Shown piece after piece: positions 44,497-52,425 of a DNA stretch of 64,000 nucleotides. Both the position numbers and the translations under genes were made by a program. Under the pieces are notes generated by a model that worked only from the letters and a program-made list of their open reading frames with translations, was not told where the DNA came from and made no database searches. Location of the stretch: positions 380,501 to 444,500 of the forward strand of contig JACEUQ010000002.1 of NCBI GenBank assembly GCA_024998815.1, in the 5' to 3' direction. Source of the DNA: Opitutus sp. (GTDB lineage Bacteria; Verrucomicrobiota; Verrucomicrobiia; Opitutales; Opitutaceae). Within the stretch, counting starts at the first letter, position 1; the number at the start of each line of letters is the position of its first letter.

Positions 44497-44817
44497 ATGT
44501 TCGACCTCATCAAAAAAACTCTCCTCGCCGGCGTCGGTGCCGCCGTCATCACCAAGGAAAAAGTCGAGGACTCGCTCGATGACTACGTTCGCCAGGGCAA
44601 ACTGAAGGCCGACGATGCCAAAATCATCGCCTCCAAAATCGCGGAACAGGGTCGCAAGGAATTCGAGGAAATGAGCCAGACGCTCGCCGCCAAGATCCAA
44701 GATCTGGCCGCCAACAGCCCCACCAAAACCGATCCTCGCATCGCCGCCCTCGAAGAACGCATCCGCTCGCTCGAAGCCAAACTAGCCAACCCTCCCACCC
44801 GCGCCGGCGAACCGTGA
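44497..44817 (+). CDS. Phasin-like coiled-coil protein preceding the UbiB-type kinase
   Basis: A 106-aa helical protein similar in form to small phasin or PHA-granule-associated proteins (LIKKTLLAGVGAAVITKEKV, LDDYVRQGKLKADDAKIIAS). The C-terminus is a heptad-rich coiled coil (IAALEERIRSLEAKLAN). Its stop overlaps the start of ubiB as GTGA. This fixed pairing suggests that it acts with the kinase, but its role is unknown. Confidence 0.7.
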   Translation: MFDLIKKTLLAGVGAAVITKEKVEDSLDDYVRQGKLKADDAKIIASKIAEQGRKEFEEMSQTLAAKIQDLAANSPTKTDPRIAALEERIRSLEAKLANPPTRAGEP

Positions 44818-46466
44818 AACCGCTGACGTTCCTCAGCAACGCCGCCCGCGCAAAGGACATCTTCGCGGTTCTGGCCAAGCACGGTTTCGCCAACCTGCTC
44901 ACCCAGCTCGATCCGCAGGAGGGACTCTGGACGCGCATCATCCCCCAGCCGGCTGAACGCCGCACCCTGTGGGAACGCGTGCGCTTGGCGCTAGAAGAGC
45001 TCGGGCCCACCTTCGTCAAAGCCGGCCAGTTAATGAGCATGCGGCCCGACGCTCTGCCGCACGCCCTGATCTTCGAACTGCGTAAACTGCAAAACGCCGT
45101 CAGTCCCCTACCCTTCGCCGAGATGTGCCCGGTGCTGGAGGACGACCTCGGCATGACCTGTGCCCAGGCGTTCGCCATCTTCGAGGAAAAACCCGTGGCC
45201 AGCGCCTCGCTCGCCCAAGTTTACTTCGCCACCCTCCACGACGGCCGCGAGGTGGCGGTAAAGGTTCAGCGCCCCAATCTCGACAAAACGGTGCAGGCCG
45301 ACCTCGACCTGCTCACGTGGTTCGCCGGCCAGTTGCACCAACGCATCGCCGCCATTTCCCCCTATGACCTGCCCTCGGTCGTAGCCGAGGTGAAGGACAA
45401 CCTGCTGCGCGAACTCGATTTTCGCCACGAGGCCCGCAACCAGCGCTATTTTAACGCCCTCAACCCGCACCCCGACCGCGTCTTCGCGCCCGAGGTGATC
45501 GACGAGTTTTGCGGCGAACATGTCATCGTGATGCAGCGCATCATCGGAGTCTCGGTGGACAACGCCGCGCTCGCTCCCGCCGAGGCCAAACGCATCGCTT
45601 CCAACGGCGCATCCTCGCTGATCCACCAGGTGCTCATCGCCGGGTTTTTCCACGCCGACCCGCATGGTGGCAACGTACTGGTCACGCCCGACGGGCGACT
45701 GTGTTTTCTCGACTGGGGCATGGCGGGTAACCTCACCCGCCGCCTGCGCCTCGGCCTGGCCGATTTGTTCATGGCCGCCGTCCAGCAAGACGCCGAGCGC
45801 ATCGTGCAAATCGCCGCCGACCTCGGCAGCCCCTCCGGTCGCGCCGACCTGCGCGCCATGGAGCGCGATGTCACCCTGACTTTGCGCGAAGATTTCAACA
45901 GTGCGATCGGCCGTATCCAACTCGGACGCGCCATGCTCAAGCTGTTGTTCATCTTCGGCCAAAACGGGATCAACATCACCCGCGACTATTCGCTCATGGC
46001 CAAGGCCGTGCTCTCGATCGAAGAGGTCGCGCGCACGCTCGACCCGCAGTTCGACCTACGCACCGAGTCCCGCCCGATCCTTGCGCAACTCCAAAAAGAC
46101 CGCACCGGCCCCCGGGCGATCGCCCGCGACGGTCGCACGCTGCTGCGTTCACTGCTCACCGGCGCACGCGAACTGCCGGCGGATATTTTCCGAATCATCC
46201 GCCGCATCGAACACGACGACCTGACCATCAAGTTTCAGCATCAAGGTCTGGAGAGCCTGGATAAGGCAATCAGCTCGGCGAGCAACCGCCTGACGCTCGG
46301 GGTGATCATTGGGGCGCTGGTGATCGGATCCTCGTTGATCGTGACGACCGGTATTCGCCCCTACCTGTTTGGCTTCCCGGCCTTCGGCATCGTCGGCTAC
46401 CTCATTTCCGCAATGCTGGGCCTTTACGTCGTCTGGGACATCGTCCGCTACAACCGCCACCGGTAG
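44814..46466 (+). CDS. ubiB: UbiB/ABC1-family atypical kinase
   Basis: A 550-aa ABC1-type kinase/ATPase needed for isoprenoid quinone biosynthesis in characterised members. Conserved elements: KAGQLMSMRPDALP (the KxGQ motif), ASLAQVYFATL (Ala-rich loop), VAVKVQRP (Lys for ATP), ELDFRHEARN, HADPHGGNVLV and DWGM. Two C-terminal transmembrane helices (VIIGALVIGSSLIV and after). It starts with GTG overlapping the preceding stop. Confidence 0.92.
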   Translation: MKPLTFLSNAARAKDIFAVLAKHGFANLLTQLDPQEGLWTRIIPQPAERRTLWERVRLALEELGPTFVKAGQLMSMRPDALPHALIFELRKLQNAVSPLPFAEMCPVLEDDLGMTCAQAFAIFEEKPVASASLAQVYFATLHDGREVAVKVQRPNLDKTVQADLDLLTWFAGQLHQRIAAISPYDLPSVVAEVKDNLLRELDFRHEARNQRYFNALNPHPDRVFAPEVIDEFCGEHVIVMQRIIGVSVDNAALAPAEAKRIASNGASSLIHQVLIAGFFHADPHGGNVLVTPDGRLCFLDWGMAGNLTRRLRLGLADLFMAAVQQDAERIVQIAADLGSPSGRADLRAMERDVTLTLREDFNSAIGRIQLGRAMLKLLFIFGQNGINITRDYSLMAKAVLSIEEVARTLDPQFDLRTESRPILAQLQKDRTGPRAIARDGRTLLRSLLTGARELPADIFRIIRRIEHDDLTIKFQHQGLESLDKAISSASNRLTLGVIIGALVIGSSLIVTTGIRPYLFGFPAFGIVGYLISAMLGLYVVWDIVRYNRHR

Positions 46467-46499
46467 ACCGGGGCGAGTTGAGCAGGAGTGAGAGCGGTC

Positions 46500-47693
46500 T
46501 CAGGCCGGACGTGCGCCAGCGCCCTTGAGTTGGGCCAGTTCGGCACGCAGCGCCACCGTCTCGGCGCGCAACTCGGCGGTTGCGGCCACCTCAGCCCGCA
46601 GTTTTACAATCTCTTCGTGCGCCAGCTTCATCTGTTCATCGAAGCCCTTACGCAGAGTGATATTGCGCCCCATGCCGATGATCCCGATCACCTCGCCCGC
46701 CGCATTCCGATAAGGCAGCTTGGTCGTCAAAATATGAATCTCACGACCATCAGCACCGAGAATCATCTCCTCCCGGTTAATCAACGGCATTCCCGTGGCC
46801 ATGATCGCCTCCTCGTCCTTACGGAATCCCGCCGCCAACTCAGGCGGATAAAGATCCACGTCGCGTTTACCGCGTAAGAACGCCTGCGTAACCCCCATGC
46901 GATTGGCGATCACTTGATTGGCCAAAAGGAACCGTCCCTCGCGGTCTTTGATATAAACCGAGTCAGGTAAGCGTGTGAGCAAAACCTCCAACAAATGCCG
47001 CTCGGTCTCCAGAGCCATCTCCGTGGTTTTAAATGCGGTCTCATCGCGCGAAAAACCAAAAGTACCGATCACCCGCCCGCTGCGGTCACGCAACGGGCAT
47101 TTCCAAGTCAGCCACCACTTGACCCGATTCCCGTCATAGGTCGCTCGCTCTGACAGGGCTATCACCGGCTGCCCCGTGCGCATGATCGCTTGTTCATCGG
47201 CCAATGTTTTCTGCGCATAATCAGCGCTCAAAAAGTCAGCGTCACTGCGGCCAATCAGCAGTGCCGGATCATCCAGTTGGACGCTGCGAGCGAGCTCGTG
47301 ATTTGCGGCCAAAAAACGCCCGTACCTGTCCTTAAAATAAACGAGATCCGGCAACAGCGGCAGCAGTTGGCTTAAGAAAATGGATTCAAACTGGTTCGTG
47401 CGTTCGGCAAGTGCGGCGACAATCGCGGGCTCCAGCCACACGGGGTCGAGTTCGGTAGCCACCACGCAGGCGACTGCGTGATCGAGTAGCATCTCCTGAG
47501 CGGCAACCAAGTCCTCGCGAGGCCAATCCGGACCGATCACAGCCACACTCAGGGCGCAGGCCTTGATCGCCTCGGCCAAGCCGGCGAGATCATCCACCCC
47601 CGGCAAAACCCGTGCGTCGGCCGCCACCGGCAGATTCTTAAGCACTTGTGAGCTAAAGCTGAGAGGCAGCAGGTGACGGGGTAGCGGATCCAT
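46500..47693 (-). CDS. PAS-only sensor protein, paralogue 1
   Basis: A 397-aa cytoplasmic protein from the ATG at 47693. A ~110-residue N-terminal region resembles a degenerate receiver-like fold (ACALSVAVIGPDWPREDL). Two PAS domains follow: ~120-245 (YFKDRYGRFLAANHELAR) and ~255-370 (YIKDREGRFLLANQVIANRM), each with a PAC-like tail (GTFGFSRDETA, GIIGMGRNITL). The end is a coiled coil. No kinase, cyclase or methyl-accepting output domain is present, so it needs a partner. It is closely related to the protein at 49843-50988. An upstream frame to 47765 exists but lacks similarity. Confidence 0.8.
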   Translation of the reverse strand: MDPLPRHLLPLSFSSQVLKNLPVAADARVLPGVDDLAGLAEAIKACALSVAVIGPDWPREDLVAAQEMLLDHAVACVVATELDPVWLEPAIVAALAERTNQFESIFLSQLLPLLPDLVYFKDRYGRFLAANHELARSVQLDDPALLIGRSDADFLSADYAQKTLADEQAIMRTGQPVIALSERATYDGNRVKWWLTWKCPLRDRSGRVIGTFGFSRDETAFKTTEMALETERHLLEVLLTRLPDSVYIKDREGRFLLANQVIANRMGVTQAFLRGKRDVDLYPPELAAGFRKDEEAIMATGMPLINREEMILGADGREIHILTTKLPYRNAAGEVIGIIGMGRNITLRKGFDEQMKLAHEEIVKLRAEVAATAELRAETVALRAELAQLKGAGARPA

Positions 47694-47762
47694 ATTAAAA
47701 AAAAGAGGCTTCAATGGTCTAACCGACGAGCAGGTTGCGGATAAGAAAAGAACCGATCGCCG

Positions 47763-47782
47763 CATGCAATTATAAACCCGGT
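47763..47782 (-). promoter_or_regulatory. Conserved leader block 1 with TATAAT, upstream of PAS paralogue 1
   Basis: On the minus strand this 20-mer holds TATAAT (plus 47769-47774). It matches 19 of 20 positions at 51057-51076 upstream of paralogue 2. No good -35 element is seen. It lies ~70 nt before the start. Confidence 0.5.
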
Positions 47783-47905
47783 TTGAACGTGCTGAATGGA
47801 ACCAGCCTAGCTGCTGAAAGGATGCCGCGGTGGATTGGCTTCAATCTCGCCCGTGTCGGCAGCATTTCCGACACGAGCATACACCGCGTCCCCGCACCTT
47901 TGGGC

Positions 47906-49708
47906 TCAGCCGTTTTTGGCTGCTTCCAATTCCTCCCAGCGAGCAAAGGCAATGGCGTGTTCGGCCTCAATTTCGTCAAGGCGCGCTTTGGCTGCAGAGG
48001 CCGCAGTCGGGTCTTTGCGATAAATAGCCACGTCACCGAGCTTAAGCGTGAGCTGCGCCTGCTCCGTCTCCAGTTTCTCGATGCGCGCGGGCAACTCGGC
48101 CAATTCGCGCTGCTCTTTATTGTTAAGCTTACGCGCCGAGGCCGCGTTGGCGCTGGCGCGGACCGGGCCGCTCTTGAGCAGGGGCGCGGCGGCGGCCACC
48201 GCACGCTTGGCCAACTCGGCCTTCCAGTCGGTATAACCACCGTCGAAGTCGCCGATCTGGCCGTCGCCTTCGAACACCAGCGAACTGGTGACCACTTCGT
48301 CCAAAAAGGCGCGGTCGTGGCTCACCACCAACAGCGTGCCGTCGTACTCGACGAGTAAGTTTTCCAAGAGGTCGAGGGTCTCGGCGTCGAGGTCGTTGGT
48401 GGGCTCGTCCATCACCAAGACGTTGGCCGGCTTGGTGAAGAGCCGGGCGAGCAGCAGGCGGTTGCGTTCGCCGCCGGAGAGCACGCGGGCGGGCGTGCGG
48501 GCGCGGTCGGGCGTGAACAGGAAATCCTGCAGATAACTGATCACGTGGCGCGTGCGGCCATCGATGGTGATGCAGTCACTGCCGAGGTTAAGGTTTTCCG
48601 CCACCGTCTTGTTGTCGTCGATGAGCGAGCGCAGTTGGTCGAAGTAGGTGACCTCCATGCGGGTGCCGTGTTTGATCGTGCCACTGGTGGGCTCGATCTG
48701 GCCCAGGAGCAGTTTGATCAACGTGGTCTTACCGGCGCCGTTGGGGCCGATCAGGCCGATCTTGTCGCCACGCATGATCGTGGTGCTGAAATCCTTCACC
48801 AGCACGCGACCGTCTGGATAGGAGAAGCTCATGTTCTCCACATCGACGACCTTGGCTCCGGAGCGTTCGGCTTCGACCAACTTGAGGTTGGCGTTGCCGG
48901 TCTTGCTGCGGCGGGCGGCACGCTCGGCGCGCATGGCAATGAGCTGGTGCACACGGCCCTGGGCGCGTGAACGCTGGGCGCGCACTCCGCGGCGAATCCA
49001 TTCCTCCTCTTGCGCGAGCTTTTTGTCGAAGGCGGCCTGCTGACGCTCCTCGGCTTCGAGGCGGTCGGCGCGGCGCTGCAGGTAACTGTCGTAATCGCAG
49101 TCCCAATTGGTGAGCACGCCGCGGTCGAGTTCGACGATGCGGGTGGCCAGTTTCCTTAAAAACGCACGATCGTGAGTCACGAAAAACAGGCTGGGTTTTT
49201 CGGTCAGCAAAAAGTCTTCGAGCCAGAGGATGCTCTCGATGTCGAGGTGGTTGGTCGGCTCGTCAAGGAGCAGTAAATCAGGCTGGCCGGCGAGAGCTCG
49301 GGCCAGCAGCACGCGGCGCTTAAGCCCGCCGGAGAGTTTTTCGAACTGGGCGGACGGCGCGAGCTGGAGCTTCTCGATGAGGTTGTCGACGCGCACGTCA
49401 CGCTCCCAGTCCTCCTCGTGTTCGCCCTGGGCACGCAGGCCGGAGGTAACGATATCGGTCACCGAGCCGAAAATATCGGAAGGGATCTCTTGGTTGAGGC
49501 GCGTGAAAACGGCGCCGGGTTGGCGGAAAACCGCACCGGTGTCGGACTTGATCTCGCCGCCGATGACCTTCATCAGCGTGGATTTGCCCGCGCCATTGCG
49601 GCCTACCAGACACAGGCGTTCACCCGGATCGACTTGAAAGTTGACCTTATCAAGGACCGCCGGACCACCGAAACAGAGATTAACATCAAGAAGACTAAAC
49701 AAAGCCAT
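47906..49708 (-). CDS. uup: ABC-F family ATPase, Uup type
   Basis: A soluble 600-aa protein with two ATPase domains: Walker A GRNGAGKST (36-44) and GPNGAGKTT, signatures LSGGLKRR and LSGGERNR, and Walker B LLLLDEPTNHLD and VLVMDEPTNDLD. The inter-domain linker contains the many Arg and Gln residues of the PtIM region. The C-terminal ~80 residues are a coiled coil as in Uup. These proteins act on ribosomes or branched DNA rather than transport. It sits between the two PAS paralogues on the same strand. Confidence 0.88.
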   Translation of the reverse strand: MALFSLLDVNLCFGGPAVLDKVNFQVDPGERLCLVGRNGAGKSTLMKVIGGEIKSDTGAVFRQPGAVFTRLNQEIPSDIFGSVTDIVTSGLRAQGEHEEDWERDVRVDNLIEKLQLAPSAQFEKLSGGLKRRVLLARALAGQPDLLLLDEPTNHLDIESILWLEDFLLTEKPSLFFVTHDRAFLRKLATRIVELDRGVLTNWDCDYDSYLQRRADRLEAEERQQAAFDKKLAQEEEWIRRGVRAQRSRAQGRVHQLIAMRAERAARRSKTGNANLKLVEAERSGAKVVDVENMSFSYPDGRVLVKDFSTTIMRGDKIGLIGPNGAGKTTLIKLLLGQIEPTSGTIKHGTRMEVTYFDQLRSLIDDNKTVAENLNLGSDCITIDGRTRHVISYLQDFLFTPDRARTPARVLSGGERNRLLLARLFTKPANVLVMDEPTNDLDAETLDLLENLLVEYDGTLLVVSHDRAFLDEVVTSSLVFEGDGQIGDFDGGYTDWKAELAKRAVAAAAPLLKSGPVRASANAASARKLNNKEQRELAELPARIEKLETEQAQLTLKLGDVAIYRKDPTAASAAKARLDEIEAEHAIAFARWEELEAAKNG

Positions 49709-49796
49709 AAGCGGGCCAACTTGTCAGCCGCATGGCTGGCATTGCAACCCTGCGCTCAGTAAACCTGCGGCCTCTGCCAAACGCTCAGTCCCAGCG

Positions 49797-49837
49797 CCCC
49801 CCCCCCCCATGGCCGTGGCGAAACAACCACGGCCGTG
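49797..49837 (-). terminator. C12 run and hairpin after PAS paralogue 2
   Basis: Arms 49808-49818 and 49827-49837 pair over 11 bp with one wobble. On the plus side they follow twelve C (49797-49808), which on the minus strand become a G-tract after the hairpin. No T-run, so termination is uncertain. Confidence 0.4.
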
Positions 49838-49842
49838 CCGAA

Positions 49843-50988
49843 TCAGGATAAACGCGACGTCACCTCGGTGGTCAGTCGAGCCACCTCGGAGCGCAAAGTG
49901 GCGATCTCGGTCTGCGCCGCCCTCATTTCCGCATCAAACCCCTTACGCAGGGTAATGTTCCTCGACATGCCGATGACGCCGATGATCTCACCGGCGGGAT
50001 TACGATAAGGCAGTTTGGTCGTCAGTACGTAAAGTTCACGGCCATCCTTGGTGTTAATCACCTCTTCGCGGTTAATCACCGGCATACCCGAGGCCATGAC
50101 GTCCTCTTCGTCTTTACGGAAAACCGCCGCTAACTCCGGCGGATAAATATCCGTATCGCTCTTCCCCCTCAGAGAAGCCGGAGTTTCGCCCATCCATTGG
50201 GCGACCACTTGATTGGCCAAGAGGAAACGCCCTTCGCGGTCCTTGATGAAAACCGAGTCAGGCAAACCGGTGAGTAGCACTTCCAAAAGATGCCGTTCCG
50301 TGGCCAGCGCGATTTCCGTGTTCTTGAGATTGGTCTGGTCGCGTGAGAAACCATAAGTGCCGATCACTCGGCCGCTCTGGTCAAGAAGCGGTGCCTTCCA
50401 GGTCACGCACCAGGTAACGCGATCGCCGTCATGCGTTTCCTTCTCTAATAAAGCGGTGATCGGCTGGCCGGTGCGCATGACCTCCTGCTCGTCCGTAAAC
50501 GCCTGTTGCGCGTGTTCGGAGGAAAAGAAATCGAAGTCGCTGCGACCAATCAAAACCGCCGGATCATCCACCCTTAAGTGCTTAGCAATAAAGGGATTTG
50601 CGGCCAGAAAACGGCCATAACGGTCTTTAAAGTAAACCGGGTCCGGCAGCAGGTGCACCAGTTGGGTGAAAAACCCGGATTCCACCCGCCGATCGCGCTC
50701 CTCAATCGCGGCACTGATCGCGGACTGAAGTGCAGCGGGATCCAGATTGGTTGCCACCACGCAAGCGGCGGCATGATCGAGAATCAACTCACGTGCGGCA
50801 GCCAGATCCTGCGGCGGCCAATCAGGGCCGATCACCACCACGCAGATCGGGCAGGCCTTCAGTGCCTCGGCCAAAGTGACGAGATCGTCAACTGCGGGTA
50901 AAACACGCGCGTCCTCCGCGACAGGGAGGTCTTTGATCACTTGCGAAACTAAACCGAGGGGAAGCAGGTGACGAGGGAGCGGTTCCAT
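49843..50988 (-). CDS. PAS-only sensor protein, paralogue 2
   Basis: A 381-aa close relative of the protein at 46500-47693, with the same order: degenerate receiver-like region (CPICVVVIGPDWPPQDL), PAS (YFKDRYGRFLAANPFIAK), PAS (FIKDREGRFLLANQVVAQ), PAC-like tails and a short coiled coil. It begins with EPLPRHLLPL, where the other has DPLPRHLLPL. The tail after the second PAS is shorter. Residues of possible haem or flavin binding could not be identified. Confidence 0.8.
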   Translation of the reverse strand: MEPLPRHLLPLGLVSQVIKDLPVAEDARVLPAVDDLVTLAEALKACPICVVVIGPDWPPQDLAAARELILDHAAACVVATNLDPAALQSAISAAIEERDRRVESGFFTQLVHLLPDPVYFKDRYGRFLAANPFIAKHLRVDDPAVLIGRSDFDFFSSEHAQQAFTDEQEVMRTGQPITALLEKETHDGDRVTWCVTWKAPLLDQSGRVIGTYGFSRDQTNLKNTEIALATERHLLEVLLTGLPDSVFIKDREGRFLLANQVVAQWMGETPASLRGKSDTDIYPPELAAVFRKDEEDVMASGMPVINREEVINTKDGRELYVLTTKLPYRNPAGEIIGVIGMSRNITLRKGFDAEMRAAQTEIATLRSEVARLTTEVTSRLS

Positions 50989-51056
50989 GAAAAAAAAGAG
51001 GGGTTAACAGCTAAACCAGACAGCGGGTTGCCGAAGAAGAAAACAACAACCGGGAT

Positions 51057-51076
51057 CATGCAAATATAAACCCGGT
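51057..51076 (-). promoter_or_regulatory. Conserved leader block 2 with TATATT, upstream of PAS paralogue 2
   Basis: The minus strand holds TATATT (plus 51063-51068) in a 20-mer matching 19 of 20 positions of 47763-47782. The leader between this block and the start also keeps the pattern CTAA-ACC, GGGTTGC and AAGAAAA. Confidence 0.5.
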
Positions 51077-51098
51077 GGTCGCACCGGAGCCGATTTTC

Positions 51099-51761
51099 TC
51101 ACCGCCGCCAATGCTTGAAACAAAAGTAGCCCACCCCCGCCAACCCCGACAGCGTGGCCGGAATCAACAGCGTGGCGAAGCCGATGTGGGTATAACACAG
51201 GCTCCCGAGTATCCCTCCGGTGAAAAAACCTGCCAGCAACACCAACAGAAGGCGGATGCGGCGAGCATCGATCGCCACGCCCCGCAGCCTTAAACCGACG
51301 GCGATGCCCACATCCGTGATGATGCCCGTCATGTGGGTGGTGCGGATCACCGCACCGCTATAATGAGTCGCCATCGCGTTTTGCAGGCCGCAGGCCATCG
51401 CCGCCAAACAGTCGCCGGCATAGTTCCCGGTCATCAGCATTTGGCAGGCCGCGAAAAGTAGCGCCGATTCAATGGCCAACACCACCCCGTAACGCCTCCC
51501 GAGCTTGAGCGCACTTTCACGAATGATCGCACCGCTGAGAACGCTGCCGATAAAAAACGAAACCACCACGGCGACCGCGTACACCGCCAACGAAAACCGA
51601 CCCGTCGCAAGCTCATTGCTCAACACCGTCACGGTGCCAGACATGTGCGAGATCGCCTGATGATGCATACCCAGAAATCCCACCGCATTGATCCCCCCCG
51701 CCATGCAAGCGAGGCCGAAGCCACCTAACACAATCCAAAGCGGAGTCGGTTTTGAAAACAT
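51099..51761 (-). CDS. DUF1275/YoaK-family membrane protein
   Basis: A 220-aa protein with about six transmembrane helices. The family signature HMSGTVTVLS near residue 40 is present, along with GLQNAMATHYSGAVIRTTHM, which repeats the pattern and is characteristic of the family. Function unknown. It is read in the same direction as rnpB, which lies upstream. Confidence 0.85.
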   Translation of the reverse strand: MFSKPTPLWIVLGGFGLACMAGGINAVGFLGMHHQAISHMSGTVTVLSNELATGRFSLAVYAVAVVVSFFIGSVLSGAIIRESALKLGRRYGVVLAIESALLFAACQMLMTGNYAGDCLAAMACGLQNAMATHYSGAVIRTTHMTGIITDVGIAVGLRLRGVAIDARRIRLLLVLLAGFFTGGILGSLCYTHIGFATLLIPATLSGLAGVGYFCFKHWRR

Positions 51762-51990
51762 TGTGGTACCTGCTTAAAGCCCGCCCACGCCGCTTCGGCA
51801 AGCTCGCGACCACCCACCCTTCGATCCGCCCGTTTCTCCACCGGCCAAGCAAGGCTTTGGCATACCTACACGCAACCCTGGCAGGCCGGGGGCCATAACG
51901 TCGCGCACTGCGCCGACCACCAGCGGCGGGGCACCCTGCCAAGCCCAGCCGAGCGCGAAGGGCCACCCTTCAGCGGCCCATGTAAAAAAT

Positions 51991-52425
51991 TTGGTTTTGG
52001 AGCCTGTAAGCCGGATTATGTGCGCGGCCTTGCGGCCGGTGTTCGCCATTTCTCTAGCGGGCTTGCGCCCACTGCGGACCGAAGTCCGCTGCAGCATACC
52101 CGTGGCTATAGGACGAGCAGCCCAGCCACCTATTTTGCCTTGCACCGGAAGGGGTTTGTCGTGCCGCCGTCATTGCTGACGACGCGGTGGGCTCTTACCC
52201 CACCTTTTCACCCTGACCTCGCGGTTGCCCGCGCGGCGGTTTGTTTTCTGTGACACTTTCCGTCAACGCGCCTTAAAACGCGCTGCCCGCACTTGCCGTG
52301 AAGCTCGTGCGGCATCCTGCCCTACGGTGTCCGGACTTTCCTCTCCAAGCATTAACTACAGTCGGCAGTTTTACCCGCCAACAGGGATCAAAGAACCTGG
52401 AGCGGCGAACCGGCCCCAAAACCAA
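51991..52425 (-). ncRNA. rnpB: RNase P RNA, bacterial type A
   Basis: Read on the minus strand, the 5' conserved block GAGGAAAGTCCGG (about 52330-52343 on plus) and the 3' block CATAATCCGGCTTACAGGC (about 52003-52021) are diagnostic of RNase P RNA, the catalytic RNA that makes tRNA 5' ends. The P1 helix is formed by 51991-52004 with 52412-52425, which fixes both ends. Length is about 435 nt. Confidence 0.95.

Follow-up and report, generated by a model that had tools for sequence, protein, structure and literature searches.

The window, a 64,000-nucleotide stretch of an Opitutus sp. genome, contains a gene for a Uup-like ABC-F ATPase between the genes for two PAS proteins, PAS_A and PAS_B, all three on the minus strand. 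The two PAS proteins are 67% identical, confirming the claim of an earlier note that PAS paralogues flank an ABC-F gene. Below, G000 is the genome of the window, other G-numbers are genomes compared with it, and the congener set (n = 13) includes G000. The features of the locus are:

51099 to 51761, minus strand: DUF1275 gene adjoining PAS_A (Pfam and comparison with congeners)
51057 to 51076, minus strand: PAS_A leader 20-mer ACCGGGTTTATATTTGCATG, with the candidate −10 hexamer TATATT
49843 to 50988, minus strand: PAS_A, 381 aa, with a predicted receiver-like domain (residues 1–105), two PAS_4 domains and a C-terminal helix (346–380)
50674 to 50988, minus strand: coding part of the predicted receiver-like N-terminal domain of PAS_A (AlphaFold2 pLDDT 89; VIA-align Z 11.1 to 3hv2)
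49709 to 49747, minus strand: uup upstream sequence, alignable in 13/13 congeners
47906 to 49708, minus strand: Uup-like ABC-F ATPase, 600 aa
47849 to 47878, minus strand: 11-bp hairpin 3' of uup and ahead of the PAS_B leader, terminator-like without a T run
47763 to 47782, minus strand: PAS_B leader 20-mer ACCGGGTTTATAATTGCATG, with the candidate −10 hexamer TATAAT
46500 to 47693, minus strand: PAS_B, 397 aa, with the layout of PAS_A and a longer C-terminal region
44814 to 46466, plus strand: ABC1/UbiB-like kinase gene, convergent with PAS_B and also adjoining PAS_B in G012

PAS_B is counted from a conserved ATG at 47693; its start in the ORF list is 47765. Between PAS_A and uup, at 49797–49808, stand 12 consecutive C (12 G on the uup strand), a homopolymer longer than any other in the window. 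This tract is absent in G007 and G012 and may be either variable or an artefact of assembly.

Both PAS proteins contain two stretches matching PAS_4, with scores of 138.9 and 132.5 bits as compared to a Pfam gathering score of 23.1. Output domains were searched for in PAS_A and PAS_B. Pfam (E 0.01) revealed no kinase, GGDEF, EAL or DNA-binding domain in either protein, and the NCBIfam matches were confined to the PAS part, with sensor-kinase models far under their cut-offs and no output domain. The same conclusion in the earlier note is thus upheld by both databases. The 12 full-length copies of the family were compared by length, and 11 of them fall between 379 and 397 aa. The exception is the copy in G333 (L116:9573-11225), whose frame of 550 aa runs about 170 residues beyond the usual end; by eye, the extra stretch appears non-coding on that strand, and the copy in the close relative G471 ends at 380 aa. 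The model of PAS_A ends in the helix at 346–380, which suggests dimerisation. Short PAS frames of 178–179 aa were seen at G000:C2:82671-83054 and G000:C1:164216-164581, with similar lengths in several congeners, and small PAS-only proteins may be common in the genus.

The best Foldseek matches of the whole PAS_A model were the NifL-NifA complex 9qq6, DosP and the MmoS sensor domain 3ewk. Proteins of the NifL, DosP and MmoS type carry kinase-like or EAL output, whereas the PAS_A model ends after its helix with no output. The LOV cysteine motif was not seen in the PAS-family sequences examined. Short LOV proteins are described as PAS-superfamily sensor domains without obvious signal-transduction domains (PMC4416707). 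The likeness to short LOV proteins lies in sensor domains without output; the difference lies in the two PAS_4 domains and the receiver-like N-terminal domain of the present proteins.

Since a structure search with the whole PAS_A model was filled by PAS domains, residues 1–105 were predicted and searched alone. This region has no Pfam match in PAS_A, and among nine copies the best E value was 0.013, with no match to Response_reg. AlphaFold2 predicted it with a pLDDT of 89 and four strands. Its best structural match was the receiver 3hv2 (VIA-align Z 11.1, rmsd 2.7, 104 aligned residues), followed by 6swl (Z 10.6) and 3cfy (Z 10.4), and most of the best matches were receivers. KaiA 1r8j, whose domain is a pseudo-receiver, matched with Z 8.4, rmsd 3.5 and 101 aligned residues. 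In Foldseek the E values were weak, the lowest being 0.016 for a B12-binding domain, and the matches also included other Rossmann-like folds. In hhalign, the family profile aligned with three receivers over 70 columns at a probability of 37% (P 3.6e-4), a partly circular comparison because two of the three had been preselected by the same profile; Uup, used as the one control, gave a probability of 0.04%.

Carrying the receiver alignment two residues past its start places the acceptor aspartate at residue 27. At this extrapolated position none of the 12 copies has D (A in nine; M, L and W in one each), and a shift of one residue would put an acid there, as residue 26 is D or E in five copies each and G in the other two. 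On this alignment residue 27 is preferred to the end of strand 3 (residue 54) as the acceptor site. Canonical receivers have five strands and match Pfam; residues 1–105 have four strands in the model and no Pfam match. The region is a predicted receiver-like fold that probably lacks the acceptor aspartate, and its most economical reading is a receiver minus one strand-helix unit and, probably, the phosphorylation site. The term PAS-only, used in the earlier note, does not cover residues 1–105 with their predicted receiver-like fold.

REC1 of ShkA is reported to be a pseudoreceiver that binds c-di-GMP (PMC8534201). A receiver-like fold that is probably unphosphorylated would be common to KaiA, ShkA REC1 and the present domain, which differs in its four modelled strands and in having no Pfam Response_reg match. 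A search with the N-terminal domain matched 15 of 114 relatives (G000 included) at E ≤ 0.1, and five of these are known carriers of the family. No such PAS protein was seen by eye among the three longest frames at each of the other ten weak loci. The strongest of them (L101, E 2e-4) resembles an oxidoreductase, and at two others (L105 and L107) apparent receiver domains were matched in register.

Full-length copies of the PAS family occur in 5/13 congeners, the window's own genome included, and three of the eight genomes without one are <90% complete. In another genus of the same family, 3/15 genomes carry the PAS family (E 1e-60). The class-level sample has at least 2 carriers among 384 genomes (own included; 12 candidates scored per genome shown), the new one belonging to that other genus, and a single peptide pattern run over named genome contigs found 6 loci. 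Distant relatives could escape all of these family searches. The full-length copies total 12, in addition to a remnant in G007 (G007:C4:22267-22464, L034), a 75-aa frame that matches only the first 65–66 family residues at 50% identity and is apparently truncated. Literature searches found no report linking Opitutaceae with a PAS domain and none joining a PAS domain, ABC-F and Verrucomicrobia, and a search on output-less PAS proteins by combined terms gave no match. On this sampling, the receiver-PAS-PAS combination is lineage-restricted and of the already known kind of output-less sensors.

In a tree of the 12 copies, the A clade has support of 96/96 and the clade of B with G007_C, a third copy in G007, 100/99; the two clades are sisters, jointly supported at 100/99, in a tree that is midpoint-rooted and in which G006, G007_C and G011 are long branches. 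The sister relationship of the A and B clades supports an origin of the pair by duplication in the lineage ancestral to G000, G007 and G012, with a further copy arising in G007.

The PAS_A-uup-PAS_B trio is intact in 2 of the 13 congeners (G000 and G007), partial in one and absent in 10, so that its order is not conserved across relatives as that of an operon would be. G007 keeps the trio despite different outer neighbours. In G012, PAS_A and uup are on one contig and PAS_B is beside the ABC1 kinase on another; neither break falls at a contig end, although, with most of the relatives being draft assemblies, a mis-join might in principle account for the split. The single copies of G011 and G006 are on a different contig from uup, and G007_C lies away from uup. 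In the other genus, G333, G471 and G465 have one copy each, and the stretches fetched around these copies contain no uup. Altogether, 5/12 PAS copies touch uup, all within one clade, and 7/12 have no uup in the stretches fetched. The earlier note had proposed that the arrangement is accidental if relatives carry the paralogues far apart and without uup. This is largely what we found, PAS_B standing apart in G012 and the copies of G011, G006, G007_C, G333, G471 and G465 having no uup beside them; the intact trios of G000 and G007 and the PAS_A-uup pair of G012 are the contrary part.

The uup gene occurs as one match per genome in 13/13 congeners (E 1e-150). In all 10 congeners outside G000, G007 and G012 it adjoins at least one old neighbour, either a lactonase-like gene or a sigma-factor block, and a sigma-factor gene (Pfam Sigma70_r2, r4) lies within 4 kb of uup in 7/13 congeners (G002, G003, G004, G005, G006, G010 and G011). 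The sigma-factor block of G000 (sigma, o2, o3) is at ∼152 kb and uup is at 428–430 kb of the same contig, ∼275 kb apart, and the 18 kb fetched around the block contain neither uup nor the lactonase gene. The gap is less well shown in G007 and G012, where the contigs carrying the block are not those of uup and break off inside it or a short way past it. From the old neighbours kept in 10/10 other congeners and the remnant block without uup in G000, we infer that the relocated gene is uup and that its move took place in one small branch of the genus. DUF1275 adjoins PAS_A in G000, in G012 and, without uup, in G011; in G007 it is on another contig. Because the DUF1275-PAS_A pair of G011 stands without uup, the PAS_A site appears to predate the arrival of uup. 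The earlier idea of a local duplication around a fixed gene is therefore half right: the sister clades support the duplication, and it was the supposedly fixed gene that moved.

The order of these two events is evenly poised in our estimate. A PAS_A-PAS_B tandem may have formed first, with uup landing between its members later, or the duplication may have followed the arrival of uup; the former is compatible with the explanation preferred below. A and B are further apart (65–67% identical) than are the uup genes of G000, G007 and G012 (97–99% identical), as a tandem-first order would have it; against this, no genome was found with an adjacent A-B pair lacking uup, and depth is a weak guide where rates vary between genes.

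The regions upstream of the two PAS genes also match, as the earlier note reported. Their 20-mers, 68 and 69 nt ahead of the ATG, are identical at 19/20 positions and contain TATATT and TATAAT, and a second common block, CCTCTTTTTTTT, directly precedes each ATG. When the two 100-nt upstream regions were shuffled, the best 20-mer match averaged 13.1 with a maximum of 16 (n = 1000), below the real value of 19 in 1000/1000 pairs. Between PAS_A and PAS_B, 69/130 four-fold sites are identical as compared to 19/20 leader positions (Fisher p 1.6e-4); in the four best-kept leaders (G000 A and B, G007_B and G012_A) 17/20 columns are invariant versus 29/113 four-fold sites (Fisher p 7e-7), and the excess is weaker over all six A/B leaders (10/20 versus 17/102, p 0.002), these p-values being optimistic because the 20-mer was picked for its match. 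The 20-mer ends 67–70 nt before the ATG in four copies, and 72 and 59 nt before it in the two degenerate ones. Since the match exceeds all 1000 shuffles and the leader is better kept than four-fold sites, the leader is probably a promoter element under selection, with a −10-like hexamer, that was passed on when the genes duplicated. Within 46300–51300 no classic sigma-70 promoter with both hexamers was found (shuffles give 1.2), so only the −10-like half is claimed.

That the leader is a mere duplication remnant without a function of its own is unlikely. It was seen in A and B copies only, being absent from G007_C, G011, G006 and the three copies of the other genus and degenerate in G007_A and G012_B, a distribution that a remnant would also have; conservation above that of the four-fold sites of the same genes and the near-fixed distance of the −10-like hexamer from the ATG argue against it. 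It is improbable that the match is instead the terminator of the upstream gene: the terminator scan does list a stem at PAS_A (51088-51071) ending in ACCGGG and then TTTATATTTG, but it lists no such stem for PAS_B, and the conservation runs on into TTGCATG and then in patches up to the ATG.

Other roles considered for the leader were rejected. As for a regulon, a 17-mer core of the leader (≤2 mismatches) was found twice in the 4.24-Mb genome, at these leaders and without a mismatch in either (backwards control, 1), and has 5 matches in the 12 other congeners as compared to 7 for the backwards control, a count not above chance; two of the five are PAS leaders (G007 and G012) and three lie elsewhere in G001, G002 and G006. 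As for a structured RNA, none of four Rfam matches in 46000–52000 reached its gathering score, and neither leader folds more stably than its shuffled versions (z −0.04 and +1.4). TTGCATG occurs seven times in the window, always on the minus strand and twice in the PAS leaders, and no enrichment was shown that would make it a genome-wide promoter part.

The Uup-like protein has the ABC-F domain layout in Pfam (ABC_tran twice, ABC_tran_Xtn and ABC_tran_CTD). Its best NCBIfam model is Uup, at 737.6 bits under a curated cut-off of 900, and it passed the general model NF000355 for ribosomal protection-like ABC-F proteins (415.1 versus 380). It is thus like the Uup subfamily in its two ABC domains, linker and C-terminal domain, with a score below that subfamily's cut-off. 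In E. coli, Uup has a reported genetic link to 50S assembly (PMC6723617).

The 40 nt upstream of uup are well kept up to the ATG in 13/13 congeners, with a palindrome, TTGCATGCAA, in nine of them and no obvious Shine-Dalgarno sequence. TTGCATG occurs there in 12/13 congeners; G000 has TTGCAATG, with one extra base inside. The hairpin after uup at 47849..47878 has a z of −4.8 in G000 and is absent from the list of the terminator scan, which requires a T run. In G007 (z −2.5) and G012 (z −3.4), uup is likewise followed directly by a hairpin, of differing sequence, so that all three trio-type species have one. With this hairpin and the kept upstream sequence of its own, uup is probably an independent transcription unit, and on the same grounds PAS_B is probably its own unit.

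We favor, with a probability of about 0.72, an explanation in which PAS_A and PAS_B are paralogous soluble sensors without output, each with its own promoter, and the trio stands together by chance in one branch and is not a working unit. The pair would go back to a gene duplication in an ancestor shared by a few congeners. Each protein would consist of a shortened receiver-like domain, probably unphosphorylated, two PAS_4 domains and a C-terminal helix, with no recognised catalytic or DNA-binding output, and would most likely form dimers through the helix and the PAS domains. The PAS domains would bind a small ligand, with the signal passed on by binding a partner protein. Given the kept leader, each gene is probably transcribed from its own promoter of a shared type, and uup, which would have brought its own upstream sequence along from a different neighbourhood, is probably transcribed separately.

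The earlier note had also raised a sensor pair that works with a ribosome-acting ATPase. No functional link between the PAS proteins and Uup was found in this comparative analysis, and control of Uup activity or expression by the pair, coupling a cellular signal to translation, is very improbable. An intact trio in G000 and G007 and a PAS_A-uup pair in G012 would fit such control, and the persistence of the trio in G007 with changed outer neighbours could hint at selection for the block. TTGCATG is common to the PAS leaders and the region upstream of uup, although by our estimate two such regions would share some 7-mer by chance in about half of cases. Against such control, uup is present in every congener and full-length PAS copies in only five, with three of the eight others <90% complete; seven of the 12 PAS copies have no uup in the stretches fetched; the upstream sequence of uup is older than the PAS neighbourhood; and a hairpin lies between uup and PAS_B. 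Very improbable, too, is that the two PAS proteins form a ligand-gated heterodimer that serves as an adaptor, in which a receiver domain that has lost one strand-helix unit and its phosphorylation site contacts a partner, with one promoter element private to the two genes, and that the pair came to regulate uup after its arrival.

Under the favored explanation of output-less sensors beside a relocated gene, this inviting gene neighbourhood is one from which function would be wrongly predicted: the move of uup can be followed, and comparison with relatives breaks the trio apart. What is left is a small family, so far in few genomes of one bacterial family, that combines a predicted shortened receiver with two PAS domains and no output.
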